Shown here one piece after another: positions 7,427 through 17,107 of a stretch of DNA of 32,365 nt (position 1 is its first letter; each line of letters starts with the position of its first letter). Position numbers and translations under genes: made by a program. Source of the DNA: an uncultured Solobacterium sp. (GTDB lineage: Bacteria; Bacillota_I; Bacilli_A; Erysipelotrichales; Erysipelotrichaceae); the NCBI GenBank assembly GCA_946415785.1, contig CAMKTV010000012.1, positions 1-32,365 of the forward strand, written 5' to 3'. The notes below the pieces were generated by a model. It was not told the origin of the DNA. It saw nothing but the letters and a program-made list of their open reading frames with translations, and did no database searches.

Positions 7427-8173
7427 ATGTTAGGAATGTACATTGTAATAATAACAATATGGTTTGGTTTTATAATTTGGCTAAGTCTCACTAGAAATAC
7501 AAGAAGAGGCCAAAGAGGAGAACTTTTTGTTGCAACAATATTAAAAAGACTCCCAAAAGATGAATACCATGTGTTAAATGATTTAATGATTGAAAACAGT
7601 GGATATGGGACAACTCAAATTGACCATATCGTTTTGTCTATTTATGGAATATTTGTAATAGAAACGAAGAATTATTCAGGTTCTATATATGGTGGAGAAC
7701 GTTCCGAAGAATGGACAAAAAATGTATATGGAAATAAGTATTCGTTCAGAAATCCAATTAGACAGAACTATGGACATATAAAAGCACTATCAAATAAATT
7801 AGGTGTAGATGAAAAGTATTTTATACCGATAGTTGTATTCACGAATAGAGCAAGACTAATAGGAGATTTTGAATCGCCAGTAATATATGCAGGCGAATTA
7901 CTAAAAGAAATAAAATTTCACAATACTATTAAGTTCACAAAAGAACAGATTATAAGAATGTATGATTTATTAAATAGTATTCCGAAATATGATAGAGACA
8001 CTAAGAAAAAGCATGTAAAAGATATTAAAGAAAAAGTAAAAAACAAACAAGATTTAATAAAAAAAGGAATTTGTCCAAAATGTGGCGGTAAGCTAATTGG
8101 AAGAGAAGGAAAGTATGGAACATTTTATGGATGTTCAAATTATCCTAAGTGTAAATATACTTTGAATCCTTAA
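7427..8173 (+). CDS. NERD-domain (nuclease-related) protein with N-terminal TM and C-terminal topoisomerase-type C4 zinc finger
   Basis: GELFVATIL, TQIDHIVLSIYGIFVIETKNYSG (D...ExK), CPKCGGKLIGREGKYGTFYGCSNYPKCKYT. Confidence 0.88.
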   Translation: MLGMYIVIITIWFGFIIWLSLTRNTRRGQRGELFVATILKRLPKDEYHVLNDLMIENSGYGTTQIDHIVLSIYGIFVIETKNYSGSIYGGERSEEWTKNVYGNKYSFRNPIRQNYGHIKALSNKLGVDEKYFIPIVVFTNRARLIGDFESPVIYAGELLKEIKFHNTIKFTKEQIIRMYDLLNSIPKYDRDTKKKHVKDIKEKVKNKQDLIKKGICPKCGGKLIGREGKYGTFYGCSNYPKCKYTLNP

Positions 8174-8214: not shown

Positions 8215-8601
8215 ATGAAAGCTATTAGAGTAGTAGCTGCAATTATAGAAAAAGATGATCATATTTTGATTGCCAGAAGAAACCATGGCGAATTTGAAGG
8301 ACTATGGGAATTTCCTGGTGGTAAATATGAAGAAGGCGAAACTGGAGAACAAGCCATTAAAAGAGAAATAAAAGAAGAATTTGATACAGATATAAATGTT
8401 AAAAAGTATTTGTGTACAATTGAACATCAATATGATTCGTTTTATTTAGTTATGGATTGCTATATTTGCGATTTAATAAATAATAATTTACATTTGCACG
8501 ATCACTCAGCAATTAAATGGATAGATCCATGCGAAGAGAATATTGAATGGGTGCCAGCAGATGTTAAAGTAATAAATAATTATAAAGAGAGTCTTAAATG
8601 A
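8215..8601 (+). CDS. NUDIX hydrolase, MutT-like (deoxy)nucleoside triphosphate pyrophosphohydrolase
   Basis: NUDIX box GGKYEEGETGEQAIKREIKEEFD. Confidence 0.9.
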   Translation: MKAIRVVAAIIEKDDHILIARRNHGEFEGLWEFPGGKYEEGETGEQAIKREIKEEFDTDINVKKYLCTIEHQYDSFYLVMDCYICDLINNNLHLHDHSAIKWIDPCEENIEWVPADVKVINNYKESLK

Positions 8602-11423
8602 GTATCTATAATAATGAAGCTGACACACTTCCTAGATTGATTTGTAATAATCCATCACAAAACATTAAAGTAATTTCTGAACTTGAAAAGTGCTTTGAAA
8701 AATGTGAAACATTTTCTTTATCCATTGCATTTATAAGTGATTCTGGGTTGTCTGCTTTAAGACAAACATTATTAGATTTAAAAAGAATTGGTAAAAAGGG
8801 AAGAATTGTTACTTCAACATATTTGGGCTTTAATAATCCTAAAATGTTTAGACAATTAATGGAATTAGATAACATTGAAGTTCGTCTTTTTCCTTTTGAT
8901 GGTTTTCATCCAAAAGGTTATATTTTTCAATATAGTAATCAAGTTAAGATAATTATTGGAAGTTCAAATTTAACACAAAACGCTTTATCAAAAAACCAAG
9001 AATGGAATGTCAGCTTAACTTCTTTTAGTAATACAGAAATTATTGAAAGAATAATGAGCGAATTTGAAGATCAATGGAATATATCAGTACCTTTAACTAA
9101 CGAATGGATTGATAAATATGGGCTTAAATATGTCGAGCCAATTCCTAGAAGCGTTGTTAAGCCTGGTGACAAAGAAATAAAACCTAATTTGATGCAAGAA
9201 GAAGCATTAACTTCATTACAGAATTTACGTAATGAAGAGAAAGACCGAGCATTATTAATATCTGCTACAGGCACTGGTAAAACATTCTTGTCAGCATTTG
9301 ATGTTAAACAATTTAATGCAAAGAAGATGCTGTTTGTAGTACACAGAGAAAACATTGCACGTAAAGCGTTAGAATCTTTTAAATTAATCATGCCAGATAA
9401 AACGTACGGTATATTTACAGGCAATAGAAAAGAAGCGGAATGTGATTATATATTTTCTACTGTTCAAACAATTGGAAAATATGAATACTTAAATCTTTTT
9501 GATAAAGATGAGTTTGATTACATTGTTTTAGATGAAGTGCACCACGCTGGTGCACAAATGTATAACAATGTAATAGAGTATTTTAAGCCTAAATTTATGT
9601 TAGGTATGACTGCTACACCAGAAAGAACTGACAAAAAAGATATCTATTCATTATTCGATTACAATATTGCATACGAAATTAGATTACAACAAGCCATGGA
9701 ATATGATTTGTTATGCCCATTCCATTATTATGGTATTTCTGATTTAGAAGTTGATAATGAAGTACATGATGATTTTCATGATTTTACTCGTTTAAATCTT
9801 GAAGCTAAAGCTAATCACATTATTGAAGCAATTAATAGTTATCATTATTCAGGAAAGAAAGTGCATGGATTAATCTTTGTAAGCAGAAAAGAAGAAGCAA
9901 AACTATTATCAGACATCTTTAATGACAAAGGTTTTAAAACAGTTGCTTTAACTGGTGAAGATAGTGAAGAAACTAGAAGAGTTATGATTGACCGTCTTGA
10001 AAAAGAAGAAGGCGATGATGCGTTAGACTATATATTTACAGTTGATATCTTTAATGAAGGCGTTGATATCCCATCTATTAATCAAGTTGTTATGGTTAGG
10101 CCAACTGAATCAGCAATTATTTTTGTTCAACAATTAGGTAGAGGCTTAAGAAAGAGCGGAAACAAAGAATATGTAAATGTCATAGATATAATTGGCAACT
10201 ATGATAAGAACTTTTTGATTCCAATTGCTTTAAGTGGTGATAACACTTATAACAAAGACAATTACAGAAGATTTTTATCAGATAGCAATGTTGAAATCAG
10301 CGGAGCATCAACGATTAGCTTTGATACTATTTCTAAAGAAAGAATTTATAAAGCAATAGATACTGCTAACTTTTCAGAAATTAATCTAATTAAAGAGTCA
10401 TATCAACAATTAAAAATGAAACTAGGAAGAATTCCTTCGTTAATGGACTTTATTAAATACGGTTCTATTGATCCACTTAGAATCTTTGACAATAATAACT
10501 TAGGTTCTTATCACGTTTTCTTAAGCAAATATGATAAGGATTACAATGTTTCTTTGGATGAAATAGAAAAAGAATTTATTGAATATGTATCTAAAAAATT
10601 TGCAGCAGGAAAAAGAATACAAGAATTAGAAGCAATTAAACAATTAGTGAATTATAAAAACAGAATGTTTTATCATTTGAATAATTGCTTAATTGATAAC
10701 TACGGTTTTCCACTTGATAACAAATTAAAGAAAACTATCGTAAACGAATTAACATTAAACTTTTTAACAGGATCTGCCAAGGGAAGATATAGTAAAATAA
10801 ACTTTATCATTGAAGATGGTGATGATTATCATATTTCTCCTTTATTAGACAGATTATTAAATAATAAAGATTTCTATAATCAATTAATGGAAGTTGTAGA
10901 TTTAGGAATTTATAATTACTTAAGACAATATAGCAATAAATACCAAAATACAGATTTATGCTTATATAAGAAATATACATATGAAGATGTATGTAGATTA
11001 TTAAACTGGGAAAAAGCAGAAGTTGCATTAAATATTGGTGGATATAAATACGACAAATATTCAAACACTTTTCCAGTGTTTATTAATTATGAAAAAAAGG
11101 ATGTACAAGCATCAATTAATTATGAAGATGAATTTTTGGGTGAATCACATTTAATAGCCATTTCTAAAAGCAAAAGAACAATTGAATCTGATGATATGCA
11201 AACGATATTAAATTCAAAAAGAAATAATACAGCAATTCATTTGTTTGTAAGAAAGAATAAAGATGATGCAACATCAAAAGAATTCTATTATTTAGGAAGA
11301 ATATATCTTAATGGAGAAATGATTCCAATCAAAATGAAAGGAACCAATGATAATGCAGTAAAAATACCATACGAATTAGAAACATCTGTAAGAGAAGACA
11401 TATATAGATATATTACTGAGTAA
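8598..11423 (+). CDS. PLD-type nuclease + SF2 DEAD/DEAH helicase + DUF3427-like C-terminus
   Basis: HPKGY...GSSNLTQNAL (PLD HKD-like); SATGTGKT; VLDEVHHAG; GMTATPER; QQLGRGLRKS; C-terminal GGYKYDKYSNTFPVFINY. ATGA overlap with the NUDIX gene. Confidence 0.9.
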   Translation: MSIYNNEADTLPRLICNNPSQNIKVISELEKCFEKCETFSLSIAFISDSGLSALRQTLLDLKRIGKKGRIVTSTYLGFNNPKMFRQLMELDNIEVRLFPFDGFHPKGYIFQYSNQVKIIIGSSNLTQNALSKNQEWNVSLTSFSNTEIIERIMSEFEDQWNISVPLTNEWIDKYGLKYVEPIPRSVVKPGDKEIKPNLMQEEALTSLQNLRNEEKDRALLISATGTGKTFLSAFDVKQFNAKKMLFVVHRENIARKALESFKLIMPDKTYGIFTGNRKEAECDYIFSTVQTIGKYEYLNLFDKDEFDYIVLDEVHHAGAQMYNNVIEYFKPKFMLGMTATPERTDKKDIYSLFDYNIAYEIRLQQAMEYDLLCPFHYYGISDLEVDNEVHDDFHDFTRLNLEAKANHIIEAINSYHYSGKKVHGLIFVSRKEEAKLLSDIFNDKGFKTVALTGEDSEETRRVMIDRLEKEEGDDALDYIFTVDIFNEGVDIPSINQVVMVRPTESAIIFVQQLGRGLRKSGNKEYVNVIDIIGNYDKNFLIPIALSGDNTYNKDNYRRFLSDSNVEISGASTISFDTISKERIYKAIDTANFSEINLIKESYQQLKMKLGRIPSLMDFIKYGSIDPLRIFDNNNLGSYHVFLSKYDKDYNVSLDEIEKEFIEYVSKKFAAGKRIQELEAIKQLVNYKNRMFYHLNNCLIDNYGFPLDNKLKKTIVNELTLNFLTGSAKGRYSKINFIIEDGDDYHISPLLDRLLNNKDFYNQLMEVVDLGIYNYLRQYSNKYQNTDLCLYKKYTYEDVCRLLNWEKAEVALNIGGYKYDKYSNTFPVFINYEKKDVQASINYEDEFLGESHLIAISKSKRTIESDDMQTILNSKRNNTAIHLFVRKNKDDATSKEFYYLGRIYLNGEMIPIKMKGTNDNAVKIPYELETSVREDIYRYITE

Positions 11424-11565: not shown

Positions 11566-14427
11566 ATGTTTAAGTATGAGATAATATCCTTAGTTAATAC
11601 TAAAAATGTTATGTTACCAATTAAGAAAAGAAAAAACGCAAAAAAAGACATTGAACTGTCTAAGGAACAACAATATTTTATTGAAAAGGCTCTAGAAGGA
11701 AACAACATATTGGTTGATGCTTGCATTGGCTCTGGTAAGACAACTTCCATTCAGAAACTTTGTGATGAACTAACAGACAAAAGTGTTCTATATTTGACTT
11801 ATAACAAGCTATTAAAAATCGATGCTAAATCCAAGATAAAAAACAAAAACGTTATGGTAACAAATTATCATGGTTTTGCCTCGTGGATTTTGTTTAAAAA
11901 CAATATATCTTTTGGTTATTCAGATTCGGTAACTGTCTTTGTAGAAAAAAAGCTGCCTATTCCAAGGTACGATGTTTTGATAATAGATGAGTATCAGGAT
12001 ATAGAGACTGAATTGGCAGAAATGCTTGAATATATTAAAGAAAATAATCCTGGTATACAAATAATTGCTGTTGGTGACATGGAGCAGAAAATCTATGATA
12101 AAACCACACTTAATGTAATGGAGTTTATAAAGCCTTTTTTAGGAGAGTATCTAGAAATAGAATTTACTAAGTGTTTTAGGATCTCAGCCGAACTGGCAGA
12201 GATGCTCGGTAGAATCTGGAACAAGAATATTGATGGGGCCAATGAGAATTGCGAAGTGGTAGAAATGACAACAGAAGATGTTGTTGAATATTTAAAAGAT
12301 AAGAAACCTTGTGATATATTATGTCTCGGTTCCAGAAGTGGTGGAATGACTTCTCTGCTAAACAAATTGGAAGAAGAACAACCTGATATTTTTAATAAGA
12401 AAAGCGTGTATGCTTCTATTAGAACACAAGAAGGCGGCGCTACCCAACCAAATAAGAATAGTGCTGTATTCACAACATTTGATGCATGTAAAGGTATGGA
12501 AAAGCCGATTTGTATTATTTATGACTGGACATATGATTATTGGCAAACACGTTTACATAAACCAGACACATCTTATGAAATATTAAGAAATATTTTCTGT
12601 GTTGCAGCTTCAAGAGGAAAAGACAAAATAATATTCGTTGTTGATAATAACGATATGCTTCTGACAGAAGAAGATCTGTTGGAACCAGGGGATAATGGAA
12701 AAAGCAACGATGTTTTAATGATAGATTCAATGTTTGATTTCAAATACAAAGAAGACATTGATGAGGCATATAAATGCTTGAATATCAAAAGAATAGATAT
12801 TCCTTTGGAAAAAACTGGTGAACTGGCAATTAGAGATAAAGATGAACTGATAGATCTGTTGCCATGCATAGGTATTTACCAGAAAGCAGTATATTTTGAA
12901 AAGTATAAAATTGATGATCAAATAAAAATATTTCTTAATGCTAATCCGGATTATAAACATTTATATGATGGTGATGTCAAAAAAACAGGACTGGATGAAA
13001 AAATATTGTTTCTTGTATCTTTAATGACTCGTCATAACAGATATAGAACGCAGGTTAGACTGCCGCTTGTTTCATACGAAGAAAGACAAAAACTGACCGA
13101 AAGGTTATCTGTGGTTCCTAAAGATGCAAATGTCCAATTGGATGCAGAAATCATTGTGAACGATGAAAAAGGGAATCAGAAGCTTTCACTCGTAGGGCTA
13201 GGAGACTGTGTTCTAGACGAATGCTATTATTCAATCAAATATCTGTATTCGATTTCTAATGTAGATTTTTTAGTGTGTGCATGTTATAGTTTAGCACTTG
13301 ATACTGAAAAAGGAATTCTATGGAATATTCACGATAATTCTCAATATGAAATCTCAATTACTAATAAAAAGATTTTTATGGATAAAGTTGTTAATGCTAT
13401 AACTAAAGGAAAAATGAAGAGTGTTTCTAGCATGCGACTAGATGGCGTAACAAAATTTGCAGTTATAGATACAGAAACTAATTATGATGACGAAGTAATA
13501 TCTATTGGTGTTGTTGTGGCCGAAGTTAAGGAAGACAAATCAGAATTTGAAGCAATCGACAAAAGATATTACATTATTACTCCAGAATGTCTAAAACTGG
13601 CTATGTTCTCTAGTCAATTGGAACATAAAAAAGTAGAGACTCATTTAAAATCAAATAGAAAAGATGTTTTGAAGGATATTGCTACGTTCTTGCAGGATTA
13701 CGGCATAGAAAACATATTCGCATATAACGCTTCTTTCGATTATCACCACTTGCCTGAACTGAAGAATATGTGCTGGTACGATATCATGGGTGTAGCAGCA
13801 TACAAACAATATAATTACTCTATTAAAAAAAGAGAAGCAACATGCTCAACTGGTCGTTTGCTTACAAACTATGGAGTTGAACCTATATTGAATAGATTGC
13901 TAGCATGTTCTACTAATGTAAAAAAGCATTATTACGAAATTCACAACGCATTAACTGATGCCATAGATGAACTTCATGTTATGCAAATGTTAGATCTACC
14001 GTTATATGTATATAACATCGCGATCATCAACGAAGATAAGCCGAATCATGATGAATTGTTAAGAATTAATTCAATTCAAAAACAGGTTGATTCAAAAAGA
14101 CTATTACAAGCTTCAAAAGAAAAGAAGAATAAAGAAAAAAAGTTAAAAAACAGAATAAAAGAGACATATATTGCTTGGGAACCAGTTTTGGTGAATAAAT
14201 ATAGCATAACCAATAAATTTGGCGCAAAAGGATTTATAGTTTTTCTAGCAGAAATAAACAAGAAAGAGAATAAACATTCTGTTTATGTTTCATTTTTAAA
14301 AAACTACGAGATACTCTATTCGCAGTATTTTGAAAAAGAACAAGGTATTATTGAAATACAAATTTATGATGATGAATCGTATAAGAGCATGATAAAAAAG
14401 ATATTCTTAAAAACTTCAAAAAAATAA
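11566..14427 (+). CDS. UvrD/Rep-type SF1 helicase fused to a PD-(D/E)XK-like region and a C-terminal DEDDh 3'-5' exonuclease
   Basis: ACIGSGKTT, LIIDEYQD, GDMEQKIYD, CFRIS, CKGME, VAASRGKDK (SF1 motifs); GDCVLDECYYSIKYL...CYSLALDTEKGILWN (PD-(D/E)XK-like); VIDTET, AYNASFDYHHL, HNALTDAIDE (DEDDh). Confidence 0.88.
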   Translation: MFKYEIISLVNTKNVMLPIKKRKNAKKDIELSKEQQYFIEKALEGNNILVDACIGSGKTTSIQKLCDELTDKSVLYLTYNKLLKIDAKSKIKNKNVMVTNYHGFASWILFKNNISFGYSDSVTVFVEKKLPIPRYDVLIIDEYQDIETELAEMLEYIKENNPGIQIIAVGDMEQKIYDKTTLNVMEFIKPFLGEYLEIEFTKCFRISAELAEMLGRIWNKNIDGANENCEVVEMTTEDVVEYLKDKKPCDILCLGSRSGGMTSLLNKLEEEQPDIFNKKSVYASIRTQEGGATQPNKNSAVFTTFDACKGMEKPICIIYDWTYDYWQTRLHKPDTSYEILRNIFCVAASRGKDKIIFVVDNNDMLLTEEDLLEPGDNGKSNDVLMIDSMFDFKYKEDIDEAYKCLNIKRIDIPLEKTGELAIRDKDELIDLLPCIGIYQKAVYFEKYKIDDQIKIFLNANPDYKHLYDGDVKKTGLDEKILFLVSLMTRHNRYRTQVRLPLVSYEERQKLTERLSVVPKDANVQLDAEIIVNDEKGNQKLSLVGLGDCVLDECYYSIKYLYSISNVDFLVCACYSLALDTEKGILWNIHDNSQYEISITNKKIFMDKVVNAITKGKMKSVSSMRLDGVTKFAVIDTETNYDDEVISIGVVVAEVKEDKSEFEAIDKRYYIITPECLKLAMFSSQLEHKKVETHLKSNRKDVLKDIATFLQDYGIENIFAYNASFDYHHLPELKNMCWYDIMGVAAYKQYNYSIKKREATCSTGRLLTNYGVEPILNRLLACSTNVKKHYYEIHNALTDAIDELHVMQMLDLPLYVYNIAIINEDKPNHDELLRINSIQKQVDSKRLLQASKEKKNKEKKLKNRIKETYIAWEPVLVNKYSITNKFGAKGFIVFLAEINKKENKHSVYVSFLKNYEILYSQYFEKEQGIIEIQIYDDESYKSMIKKIFLKTSKK

Positions 14428-14627
14428 TCAAGCACATGGTTTTAGTTTTAAAGATTTGAGAAACATGTAGATGGAGGCTACTTATATATCCGAAATAAAA
14501 TGGACATCAACGTCTCAACAAAAAAGAATAATAAATAGCATCAACTATGAATGAAATTATACTTTCTTTGTTCTTTTTATCATCTAGTTTTGTATGAGAT
14601 AATATGTTTATCTTTGTTAGTTTGTTT

Positions 14628-15776
14628 ATGAAAGTTTGGAATATTAAAAAAATCACTATTATCATACTGCTTGTTTTAAGTTTATTTGGTTGTCGTACTA
14701 GAGAAGACAACCATTTAATCTACATCATCAGTGATACTCACTATATGTCTGATTATTTAGTTGATCCTAATAATAAACTTTATACTAAGAAATATTTAAC
14801 TCCTGATTGTAGGAACCAAGAAGATGAAGATATCTTAATAGATGCTTTAATAGATGATATTAATAATAGTCATGTTGATTTAGTAGTATTTACTGGTGAT
14901 CTTTCTTTTCATGGAGCTTTAATTAGTTTAGAAGAATTTAAGAAAAAAATTGATAATATTAATACTCAAGTATTAGTAATACCAGGTAATCATGATTTAT
15001 ATATTCAAAATACTTATTCTTTTATTAACGATATAGATCACAAAGTAGATAATGTGGATAATGAATCTTTTAAGGAATTATTTAAGGATAATGGCTATGA
15101 TTCTTTATACCAAGATAAAGATAGCTTATCTTATGCCTATATATTAAATGATGAAATAATGTGTCTAATGTTAGATACAACTAAATGTCGATATAATGAT
15201 GCGAATAATGCTAATCTGGCAGGAGGTTATTTAAATAATAATACTCTTAATTGGATAGAAGAAATGCTTAAATATGCCAAAGAGAATGATTTAAGAGTTA
15301 TTTCTTTTAGTCATCATAACTTATTAATGCATAATGAATTATTTAATACTGGTTATGTAATTGATAATGCGGAGGCATTAGTTAATTTATATAAACAATA
15401 TGATGTGAAATTAAATCTATCAGGACATATGCATATTCAACATATTAAAGAAGAAGATGGAATTGTTGATATAGCTAATGAATCATATCTTATATATGGT
15501 AATAGATATGGCATATTAAATATAAGTGATAATGAGATTAAATATGAATCTAAACAAATAAAGATAGATGATATACAAGATAATTCTTTAAATTGTTTTA
15601 AGACTTTTAATTCTTTTAATAATGAAGATATTGGTATATTTATGGCTCATTATTTTGATGGAGATTATAAATATATCAAAGAGAATTATCCAAAATATAA
15701 TGCTGATGATAGCTATTATAATTATTTATTTAATAACTTAGAAGACAGAGATCAGCATTCTATAGTAATCAGATAG
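14628..15776 (+). CDS. Metallophosphoesterase, predicted lipoprotein
   Basis: Signal peptide with lipobox LSLFGC; ISDTHYMSD, FTGDLSFHG, PGNHDLY, SHHN, SGHMHIQH. Start chosen at internal ATG 14628 (track gives 14604). Confidence 0.85.
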   Translation: MKVWNIKKITIIILLVLSLFGCRTREDNHLIYIISDTHYMSDYLVDPNNKLYTKKYLTPDCRNQEDEDILIDALIDDINNSHVDLVVFTGDLSFHGALISLEEFKKKIDNINTQVLVIPGNHDLYIQNTYSFINDIDHKVDNVDNESFKELFKDNGYDSLYQDKDSLSYAYILNDEIMCLMLDTTKCRYNDANNANLAGGYLNNNTLNWIEEMLKYAKENDLRVISFSHHNLLMHNELFNTGYVIDNAEALVNLYKQYDVKLNLSGHMHIQHIKEEDGIVDIANESYLIYGNRYGILNISDNEIKYESKQIKIDDIQDNSLNCFKTFNSFNNEDIGIFMAHYFDGDYKYIKENYPKYNADDSYYNYLFNNLEDRDQHSIVIR

Positions 15777-15999: not shown

Positions 16000-16683
16000 A
16001 TGAGTGTTTCTGATAACATTATTTCTTTACGTAAGAAATTCAATTATTCTCAACAGGAAATAGCAGATAAACTTGGTATAACAAGACAGACTTATATAAA
16101 AATTGAAAAAAATGATAGTGAGCCTACTGTTAAAGAACTTAATGAACTGGCTAATATTTATGGAATACCAGTAGAAGAATTCTTTTATGGTGTTCAAAAT
16201 ATAGAAAAATTTAAACAGATGTATTTATATATTCTTTCTAAATTCAAAAAAAGTGGCTTACCTAAAACAAAACTGGCTAAATTATTATATTTCGCTGATT
16301 TCAGACATTTTTATAATACTTTAGAATCTATGTCTGGTGTTTTATATAGATGTAAAGATTATGGACCTTTAGCTGATCCTTTTTTAGAATTAACTGAAGA
16401 TTTAGCTCAATCAGGTAACATTCAGGTTGAATGTCTTTCAGGAGGAGCTAATATGATTACTATTAAGACATCAACTTTTAATAATAATTATGATTTATTA
16501 TCTAAAGAAGAATTAAAAGAAATAGATGATATTTGTGAAAAATGGAAAAATATAGATACTAAACAGATGGTAAGTTATACTCATCAGCAAAAGCCTTGGA
16601 TGGCATGTAGAAAAGGCGAAATAATCCCGTATGAATTAATACTTCAAGAAGATCCAGATCATGTTGATACACCAATTACCTAA
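16000..16683 (+). CDS. XRE HTH + Panacea (SocA/DUF4065) domain antitoxin
   Basis: HTH IADKLGITRQTYIKIEKNDSEPTVKELNELANIY; Panacea-like LPKTKLAKLLYFADFRHFYNTLESMSGVLYRCKDYGPLADPF; SD aaggagg. Confidence 0.85.
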   Translation: MSVSDNIISLRKKFNYSQQEIADKLGITRQTYIKIEKNDSEPTVKELNELANIYGIPVEEFFYGVQNIEKFKQMYLYILSKFKKSGLPKTKLAKLLYFADFRHFYNTLESMSGVLYRCKDYGPLADPFLELTEDLAQSGNIQVECLSGGANMITIKTSTFNNNYDLLSKEELKEIDDICEKWKNIDTKQMVSYTHQQKPWMACRKGEIIPYELILQEDPDHVDTPIT

Positions 16684-17107
16684 GAATAATGAATTGCTTT
16701 CGGTAATTTTTACCGACTATTCTAAACATCATTATTTAAAAAACTTTGAAAAAAGATATAAAGGCAAACAATGGGATTCTACAAAAAAGTCTATTATTGA
16801 AGACTTAAGCCGTTTAAGAGTAGAAAACAATACTACTCAATTATCATCACAAATTGATGAATTGAAATATGATGATCAAGAATATCTGGCTAAATATGAC
16901 TTTAAAGTAGCTTTAACTAAAGAATCTACAAAATCATCTGGTAATAGATGCATATTATATATAAACAATAAAACAGATACTATTAAAATATTATTAATCT
17001 ATAACAAAAAAGATCTTCCAAAGAATAAAGATGAAACTAAATTCATCATGGATGAAATAGAGAATAATTTTGAATCAGAAATAAAAAGATTGATTAAAAA
17101 TATATGA
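16661..17107 (+). CDS. Candidate toxin of the Panacea TA pair, RelE/ParE-like
   Basis: 23-nt overlap with the antitoxin gene; RelE-like pattern KYDFKVALTKESTKSSGNRCILYINNKTDTIKILLIYNKKD. Confidence 0.55.
   Translation: MLIHQLPKNNELLSVIFTDYSKHHYLKNFEKRYKGKQWDSTKKSIIEDLSRLRVENNTTQLSSQIDELKYDDQEYLAKYDFKVALTKESTKSSGNRCILYINNKTDTIKILLIYNKKDLPKNKDETKFIMDEIENNFESEIKRLIKNI

Follow-up and report, generated by a model that had tools for sequence, protein, structure and literature searches.

Does a helicase that was joined to two nuclease domains still use both of them? This question is raised by one gene on contig CAMKTV010000012.1 of an uncultured Solobacterium sp., of which a stretch of 32,365 nucleotides (the window) was analysed. 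The gene, single-copy in its 1.37-Mb draft genome, encodes a 953-amino-acid (aa) fusion of a superfamily 1A (SF1A) helicase, a PD-(D/E)XK-like middle domain and a DEDDh exonuclease (Table 1), and its open reading frame (ORF) has no internal stop. The small order of this genome shares its class, probably Bacilli, with mycoplasma-like genomes that read TGA. A sequence-only reading had proposed that the protein lost one nuclease site and kept another. The comparison with about 70 relatives, from Clostridia, mycoplasmas, actinobacterial plasmids and viral contigs, supports this proposal: D547, E556, K558 and Q570 of the middle domain are retained in all of them, and the window copy has lost E556 and Q570.

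Active site of the middle domain

Through AlphaFold prediction of residues 370-625 with 48 homologues (a set drawn up without the actinobacterial sequences), a model with a mean pLDDT (predicted local distance difference test) of 93.3 and a pTM (predicted template modelling score) of 0.90 was obtained. The middle domain is modelled with strand order E-E-E-H-E-E, typical of PD-(D/E)XK, as a three-stranded sheet, a helix and two strands with Asp and Lys at the strand ends; together with Foldseek this places it in the PD-(D/E)XK fold, as had been predicted for this region. The Foldseek matches among solved structures were Cas4 (SSO0001), ACE1 (an Argonaute-associated Cas4 protein), RecBCD chains, AdnB and RecE. 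Since they start at an E-value of 3e-3, the domain can be assigned only loosely to a family of this superfamily. Pfam PDDEXK_3 (PF13366) was found above its curated cut-off in relatives L013 (33.9 vs 22), L026, L035, L048 and L050, and the window protein, searched up to E 0.1, gave no match to it. When PDB sequences were searched with a profile of the nuclease domain, only a chance match turned up, and it was discarded.

The family shares the motif G544-x-A-D547-x8-E556-L-K558-F-V-S-E-L-x-H-x-H-F-L-Q570-C-A-x-Y. In the window copy the corresponding segment is GDCVLDECYYSIKYL, where S556-I-K558 stands at the ExK position and the Q-motif position is taken by V570, in full agreement with the sequence-only reading. 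E556 and Q570 are kept in 51 of the 51 other aligned members, actinobacterial ones included, in 17 further loci (mostly mycoplasma-like, read with TGA as Trp) and in all three viral contigs. S556 and V570 are thus unique to the window copy, where D547, K558 and Y574 are preserved. The signature of an active nuclease of this type, D...(E/D)xK with the Q motif, is present in all aligned relatives and absent here. The suggestion that the acid was lost, rather than supplied by an adjacent residue, also holds: homologues have Glu exactly at 556, and the window copy has no substitute acid at 555-557.

The change is not limited to these two residues. Residues 540-590 form the most conserved stretch of the family, with a mean identity of 0.73 among relatives (5-95% range 0.61-0.86), and the window copy reaches only 0.39 there. 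Outside this stretch its identity falls inside the family range (helicase 0.60 vs 0.66, connector 0.40 vs 0.51, residues 481-539 0.40 vs 0.49, residues 591-615 0.45 vs 0.55), and the exonuclease, with 0.45 vs 0.53, is no more diverged than in its peers. Counting strictly conserved columns, defined as those at least 90% conserved in the family, 16 of 28 were changed in residues 540-590 and 12 of 158 in the helicase; relatives mostly show 0-2 deviations per about 25 such columns of the stretch, with a maximum of 6 in 27. Compared with the remaining conserved columns of residues 29-615 (21/206 changed), the excess gives a Fisher p of 5e-8, a guide only, as columns are not independent of fold constraints. 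Because the helicase and the exonuclease of this copy diverge normally, the loss is targeted at one site and beyond chance. Nor does a compensated frameshift account for the changes, given that both alternative frames are interrupted by stops and that D547, V549, Y555, K558, F568, L569, C571, A572 and Y574 align gap-free.

The whole gene might instead be a non-functional relic in decay, the nuclease being the first part visibly affected. The copy was found in one genome only, and 19 of the 46 conserved columns of the nuclease domain are changed. Nevertheless, with 953 open codons, all helicase motifs and the five DEDDh residues intact, and helicase and exonuclease no more diverged than in peers, we regard a relic as very improbable.

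A second alternative is that the site is rewired and not dead, S556-x-K558 working as in Cfr10I-type enzymes with an acid from the following helix, for example D567. In enzymes of this type the spacing of the acid after the lysine would put it at about 570-572, and no acid is present there. In such enzymes an S-x-K site is completed by an acid from the next helix (PMC551604), and D567, which lies at the start of that helix, occurs in the window copy alone, nearly all relatives having His there. However, this copy has also lost the Q-motif glutamine and most of the conserved residues around it, which resembles relaxed constraint, and with the Q motif gone, rewiring through D567 is quite unlikely in our estimation.

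In RecB the equivalent acid, D1080, is essential for the nuclease, and D1080A abolishes nuclease activity (PMC2828478). For this reason the PD-(D/E)XK domain of the window copy is expected to be folded yet catalytically dead. Such decay is not inherent to the architecture, as every other fused member that could be aligned retains both sites. There was no close relative by which the loss could be dated; none above about 60% core identity was found in 146 family, 316 order, 395 class and 392 phylum genomes.

Helicase motor, exonuclease and family

The helicase is the only part of the window protein recognised by Pfam (AAA_19 and UvrD-helicase, above cut-off), and Foldseek matched its core best to PcrA, UvrD and Rep (E 7e-12). 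The motifs GSGKTT (55-60), DEYQD (141-145), GDMEQKIYD (170-178), FR (204-205), FTTFDACKG (302-310) and VAASRGK (346-352) are all present and family-conserved, as had been claimed for a full SF1 set in one 953-aa ORF; Walker A and B and the SF1 motifs in order, on a UvrD fold, make it a UvrD/PcrA-like SF1A helicase. PHROGs assigned the protein to a phage DNA helicase family, NCBIfam gave no match near cut-off, and the PADLOC match was limited to the Walker B part of GajB models; the NCBIfam and PADLOC versions used hold no dedicated model for this helicase-nuclease family.

The exonuclease was likewise found as first read, with an intact Exo I/II/III set. D635, E637, D725, H793 and D798 are present, and a comparison of 37-38 sequences, from which a divergent second copy of one mycoplasma was excluded, showed no variation at these positions. 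The DxE, the Exo II Asp and the Exo III HxxxxD identify a DEDDh (DnaQ-like) domain, whose profile matched the PolC exonuclease 2p1j (E 0.0025). Because no Pfam exonuclease model matched, even for intact stand-alone versions, the domain is a divergent DEDDh branch. In one stand-alone DEDDh protein (L050, 9835-10665), a stretch at the C-terminus weakly matches the tudor-like domain of PcrA/UvrD (E 0.017).

The family has in common a core of about 600 aa, in which the helicase is followed by the helical connector and the nuclease domain. In the bacterial genomes scanned, 55 loci were found, mostly in Lachnospiraceae, Oscillospiraceae and other Clostridia, with one in Acholeplasmatales and one in Mycoplasma; whole-genome searches found further mycoplasma-like genomes with a member. 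Three viral contigs carry members, all intact, and the phage records searched gave zero matches. Two actinobacterial plasmids carry a member with 34% identity over residues 12-614, and beyond these the plasmid search gave one weak helicase-only match. The distribution is patchy within genera and families, and none of the genus mates in the sets searched has the gene. On the two plasmids, pGKT2 and pGS01 (L004 and L005), the gene lies in a shared block with topoisomerase and hypothetical genes of matching size and order. The mycoplasma-like genomes (L064-L066, L078-L091) have one or two helicase-nuclease copies, several followed by a DEDDh stretch, and some of the matches contain TAA or TAG stops, consistent with gene turnover in small genomes.

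The DEDDh domain is fused in 23 of the 52 aligned members. A separate DEDDh ORF lies directly downstream in L021, L031, L033, L035-L037, L050, L053 and L056 and upstream in L030, and in L051 the domain is joined to another ORF; the remaining members have no DEDDh copy within the fetched flank. In a tree built from the helicase part, six changes are needed to explain the fused state, at least two of them forced, and the window protein forms a lone branch with a length of 0.72 changes per column. Because the DEDDh gene shifts between fused, adjacent and absent, helicase and exonuclease seem to be functionally linked, and there is good evidence from these arrangements that they would share a substrate.

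Genomic surroundings

The features of the window locus are listed in Table 1. The upstream neighbour had been read as a PLD-helicase hinting at defence or DNA processing. The pair of Nudix and type IV genes recurs in a genus relative (G060) without the helicase. Directly before the pair, at 7427-8173, a NERD nuclease-like domain with a topoisomerase zinc ribbon is encoded.

Table 1. Coordinates in the window of the fusion gene, its domains and key residues, and the neighbouring genes
Feature	Position	Strand	Basis
Helicase / PD-(D/E)XK pseudonuclease (predicted) / DEDDh exonuclease fusion, 953 aa	11566..14427	+	ORF, Pfam, motif reading
SF1A (UvrD/PcrA-like) helicase core, aa 30-365, all motifs intact	11653..12660	+	Pfam, Foldseek, motifs
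Helical connector, aa 366-480, conserved across family	12661..13005	+	Alignment, AlphaFold
PD-(D/E)XK domain, aa 481-615, active-site residues lost, predicted fold kept	13006..13410	+	AlphaFold, Foldseek, PDDEXK_3 in intact homologues
D547, retained catalytic Asp, invariant	13204..13206	+	Alignment
S556, ExK glutamate position (E in all other aligned members)	13231..13233	+	Alignment
K558, retained catalytic Lys	13237..13239	+	Alignment
V570, Q-motif glutamine position (Q in all other aligned members)	13273..13275	+	Alignment
DEDDh 3'-5' exonuclease domain, aa 630-822	13453..14031	+	D635, E637, D725, H793, D798; PolC profile match
C-terminal extension, aa 826-953, low-confidence coiled coil, not conserved	14041..14424	+	Structure prediction
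PLD-SF2 helicase-DUF3427 type IV restriction enzyme, immediately upstream	8598..11423	+	PADLOC mREase_IV, E 4e-235 over full length; Pfam
Nudix gene overlapping the type IV enzyme (PADLOC PDC-S07)	8215..8601	+	Pfam, PADLOC
Metallophosphoesterase, conserved right edge of the hotspot	14604..15776	+	Pfam, synteny

To the right of the gene, the block metallophosphoesterase - helix-turn-helix (HTH)/Panacea - 148 aa - 659 aa - GH43 is syntenic in another genus relative (G002). Left of this block, beyond two unassigned genes, G002 carries Vsr, a cytosine methylase (Dcm) and MzaE/D/C, and because these genes occupy the equivalent place, the window site is a defence hotspot. The metallophosphoesterase shows sub-cut-off NCBIfam similarity to the anti-phage phosphoesterase DS9_1, and a second, short remnant copy of it was found in L102 (11446-11583). 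The gene with HTH and Panacea (SocA-like antitoxin) domains overlaps the 148-aa ORF, which belongs to no known family (16000-17107); both are 88-90% identical in G002 and together are a candidate toxin-antitoxin pair of the Panacea type, whose toxin would be a new one.

Defence genes were also found beside the relatives. PprDinG and PprPIWI stand upstream in an operon-like row with the helicase in L021, L033 and L035. In these three loci, the helicase-nuclease and the DEDDh gene directly follow the pPIWI-RE genes, and the arrangement is possibly an extended pPIWI-RE system. Wadjet JetC/JetD are neighbours in L009, L050 and L063 (the last perhaps the same locus as L050), type I restriction subunits in L016 and L026, and a type IIG enzyme in L050. 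No constant partner was found across the loci besides the exonuclease. As control we used 85 ORFs from five other 20-kb stretches of the host genome: none was of the JetC/JetD, Ppr or type I/IIG kinds, and generic PADLOC models did match some. A mads3 neighbour of L037 was dropped, as the mad3/mad8 models also match five control ORFs.

With the neighbour matching a type IV restriction enzyme, relatives near Wadjet, pPIWI-RE and type I/IIG genes, and the hotspot, the defence hint of the sequence-only reading has been strengthened as far as gene context goes; the function itself is suggested by that context.

Possible role and relation to known systems

Taking this together, the gene is rather probably an accessory, horizontally scattered defence helicase-nuclease, which in this copy would unwind DNA and degrade it only via the DEDDh site. 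Several points weigh against this reading: the matches of the middle domain to solved structures are weak (best E 3e-3, TM score about 0.4), flanking defence genes vary between loci and many loci have no recognised defence neighbour, and the control was small and came from a single genome, not from the neighbours' own genomes.

The main rival to a defence role is a general function of the family in DNA repair or recombination, as a mini AddA/RecB or a repair module like MrfAB, which would lie near defence genes only since both are accessory; the exonuclease of the window copy would then trim damaged or stalled ends. Repair is where UvrD-like motors and RecB-type nucleases typically occur; beside many relatives no defence gene was recognised, and the family is present in small-genome mycoplasmas. 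MrfA is an SF2 helicase of the YprA family. In B. subtilis, MrfAB is a helicase functionally paired with a DEDDh exonuclease and repairs mitomycin damage (PMC10889028), a likeness that also speaks against a defence role; the motor here, by contrast, is SF1A, comes with a PD-(D/E)XK domain and is often fused to the exonuclease. We consider the repair role unlikely, in view of the patchy distribution within genera and families, the operon-like arrangement with pPIWI-RE, the Wadjet and restriction genes close by and the defence hotspot.

RecB, AddA and AdnB share with the family an SF1A motor followed by a PD-(D/E)XK nuclease and process DNA ends, whereas the proteins described here are about half the size, have an extra DEDDh exonuclease and an accessory distribution. 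A partner of the RecC/AddB/AdnA type was found neither in the window nor recurrently beside relatives, and the family falls outside RecBCD, AddAB and AdnAB. The UvrD-like defence helicase GajB of Gabija showed weak PADLOC similarity around Walker B, below any membership level. No GajA (OLD/Toprim nuclease) was found beside the window gene or among the listed families of 94 family neighbours, which places the gene outside Gabija; unlike in Gabija, the nucleases of this family are in cis.

The UvrD-Cas4-like fusions combine a UvrD-like SF1 helicase with a RecB/Cas4-type nuclease, occur in restriction-modification and Vsr/Dcm contexts and are predicted to act in defence (PMC5704561); the family resembles them in this composition and in its defence-like contexts. 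They belong to Pfam PF12705, whereas the family here matches only PF13366: neither the seven helicase-nuclease relatives searched up to E 5 nor the window protein, searched up to E 0.1, matched PF12705. The family also has a DEDDh partner, which is not described in that study. The best predicted-structure matches of the connector and nuclease region were giant-virus 'helicase/exonuclease' proteins (Faunusvirus, E 1.7e-9; the UvrD-like helicase of Pithovirus LCPAC102, 4e-6), with just 13-15% sequence identity and from viruses that infect eukaryotes. No description of the three-part architecture or of an inactivated form was found in the literature searched, which omits most subscription papers.

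For the probable defence role, the following mechanism might be proposed. The ancestral core of about 600 aa would have joined a UvrD-like 3'-5' SF1A motor to a C-terminal PD-(D/E)XK nuclease, and the DEDDh 3'-5' exonuclease would have been added later, in trans or by fusion. SF1A motors translocate 3' to 5', as established for UvrD and PcrA. Intact members most likely destroy DNA from its ends: their motor would be loaded at an end that is free or nicked, or on single-stranded DNA from a partner system, and then translocate, the PD-(D/E)XK site cutting and the DEDDh site chewing the 3' strand. In the window copy the middle domain would keep its fold but, having lost E556, which binds the metal, as well as Q570 and conserved residues nearby, would do no more than guide the DNA or support the structure. 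This would leave the motor and the DEDDh site to work on phage or foreign DNA, with degradation via DEDDh alone. We might speculate that the adjoining type IV enzyme, NERD protein and Nudix protein could provide cuts or clean up.

The module of helicase and DEDDh exonuclease recurs beside several unrelated defence systems. Tentatively, and with some doubt, we may go further and suppose an undescribed modular defence family of SF1A helicase, PD-(D/E)XK nuclease and exchangeable DEDDh exonuclease, which serves various primary systems, among them Wadjet, pPIWI-RE and restriction enzymes, as a common attachment for destroying DNA, and of which one lineage had its first nuclease switched off under selection, leaving the exonuclease as sole effector. 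As a natural single-site mutant in an otherwise strictly conserved family, the window copy makes the separate jobs of the two nuclease sites directly testable.
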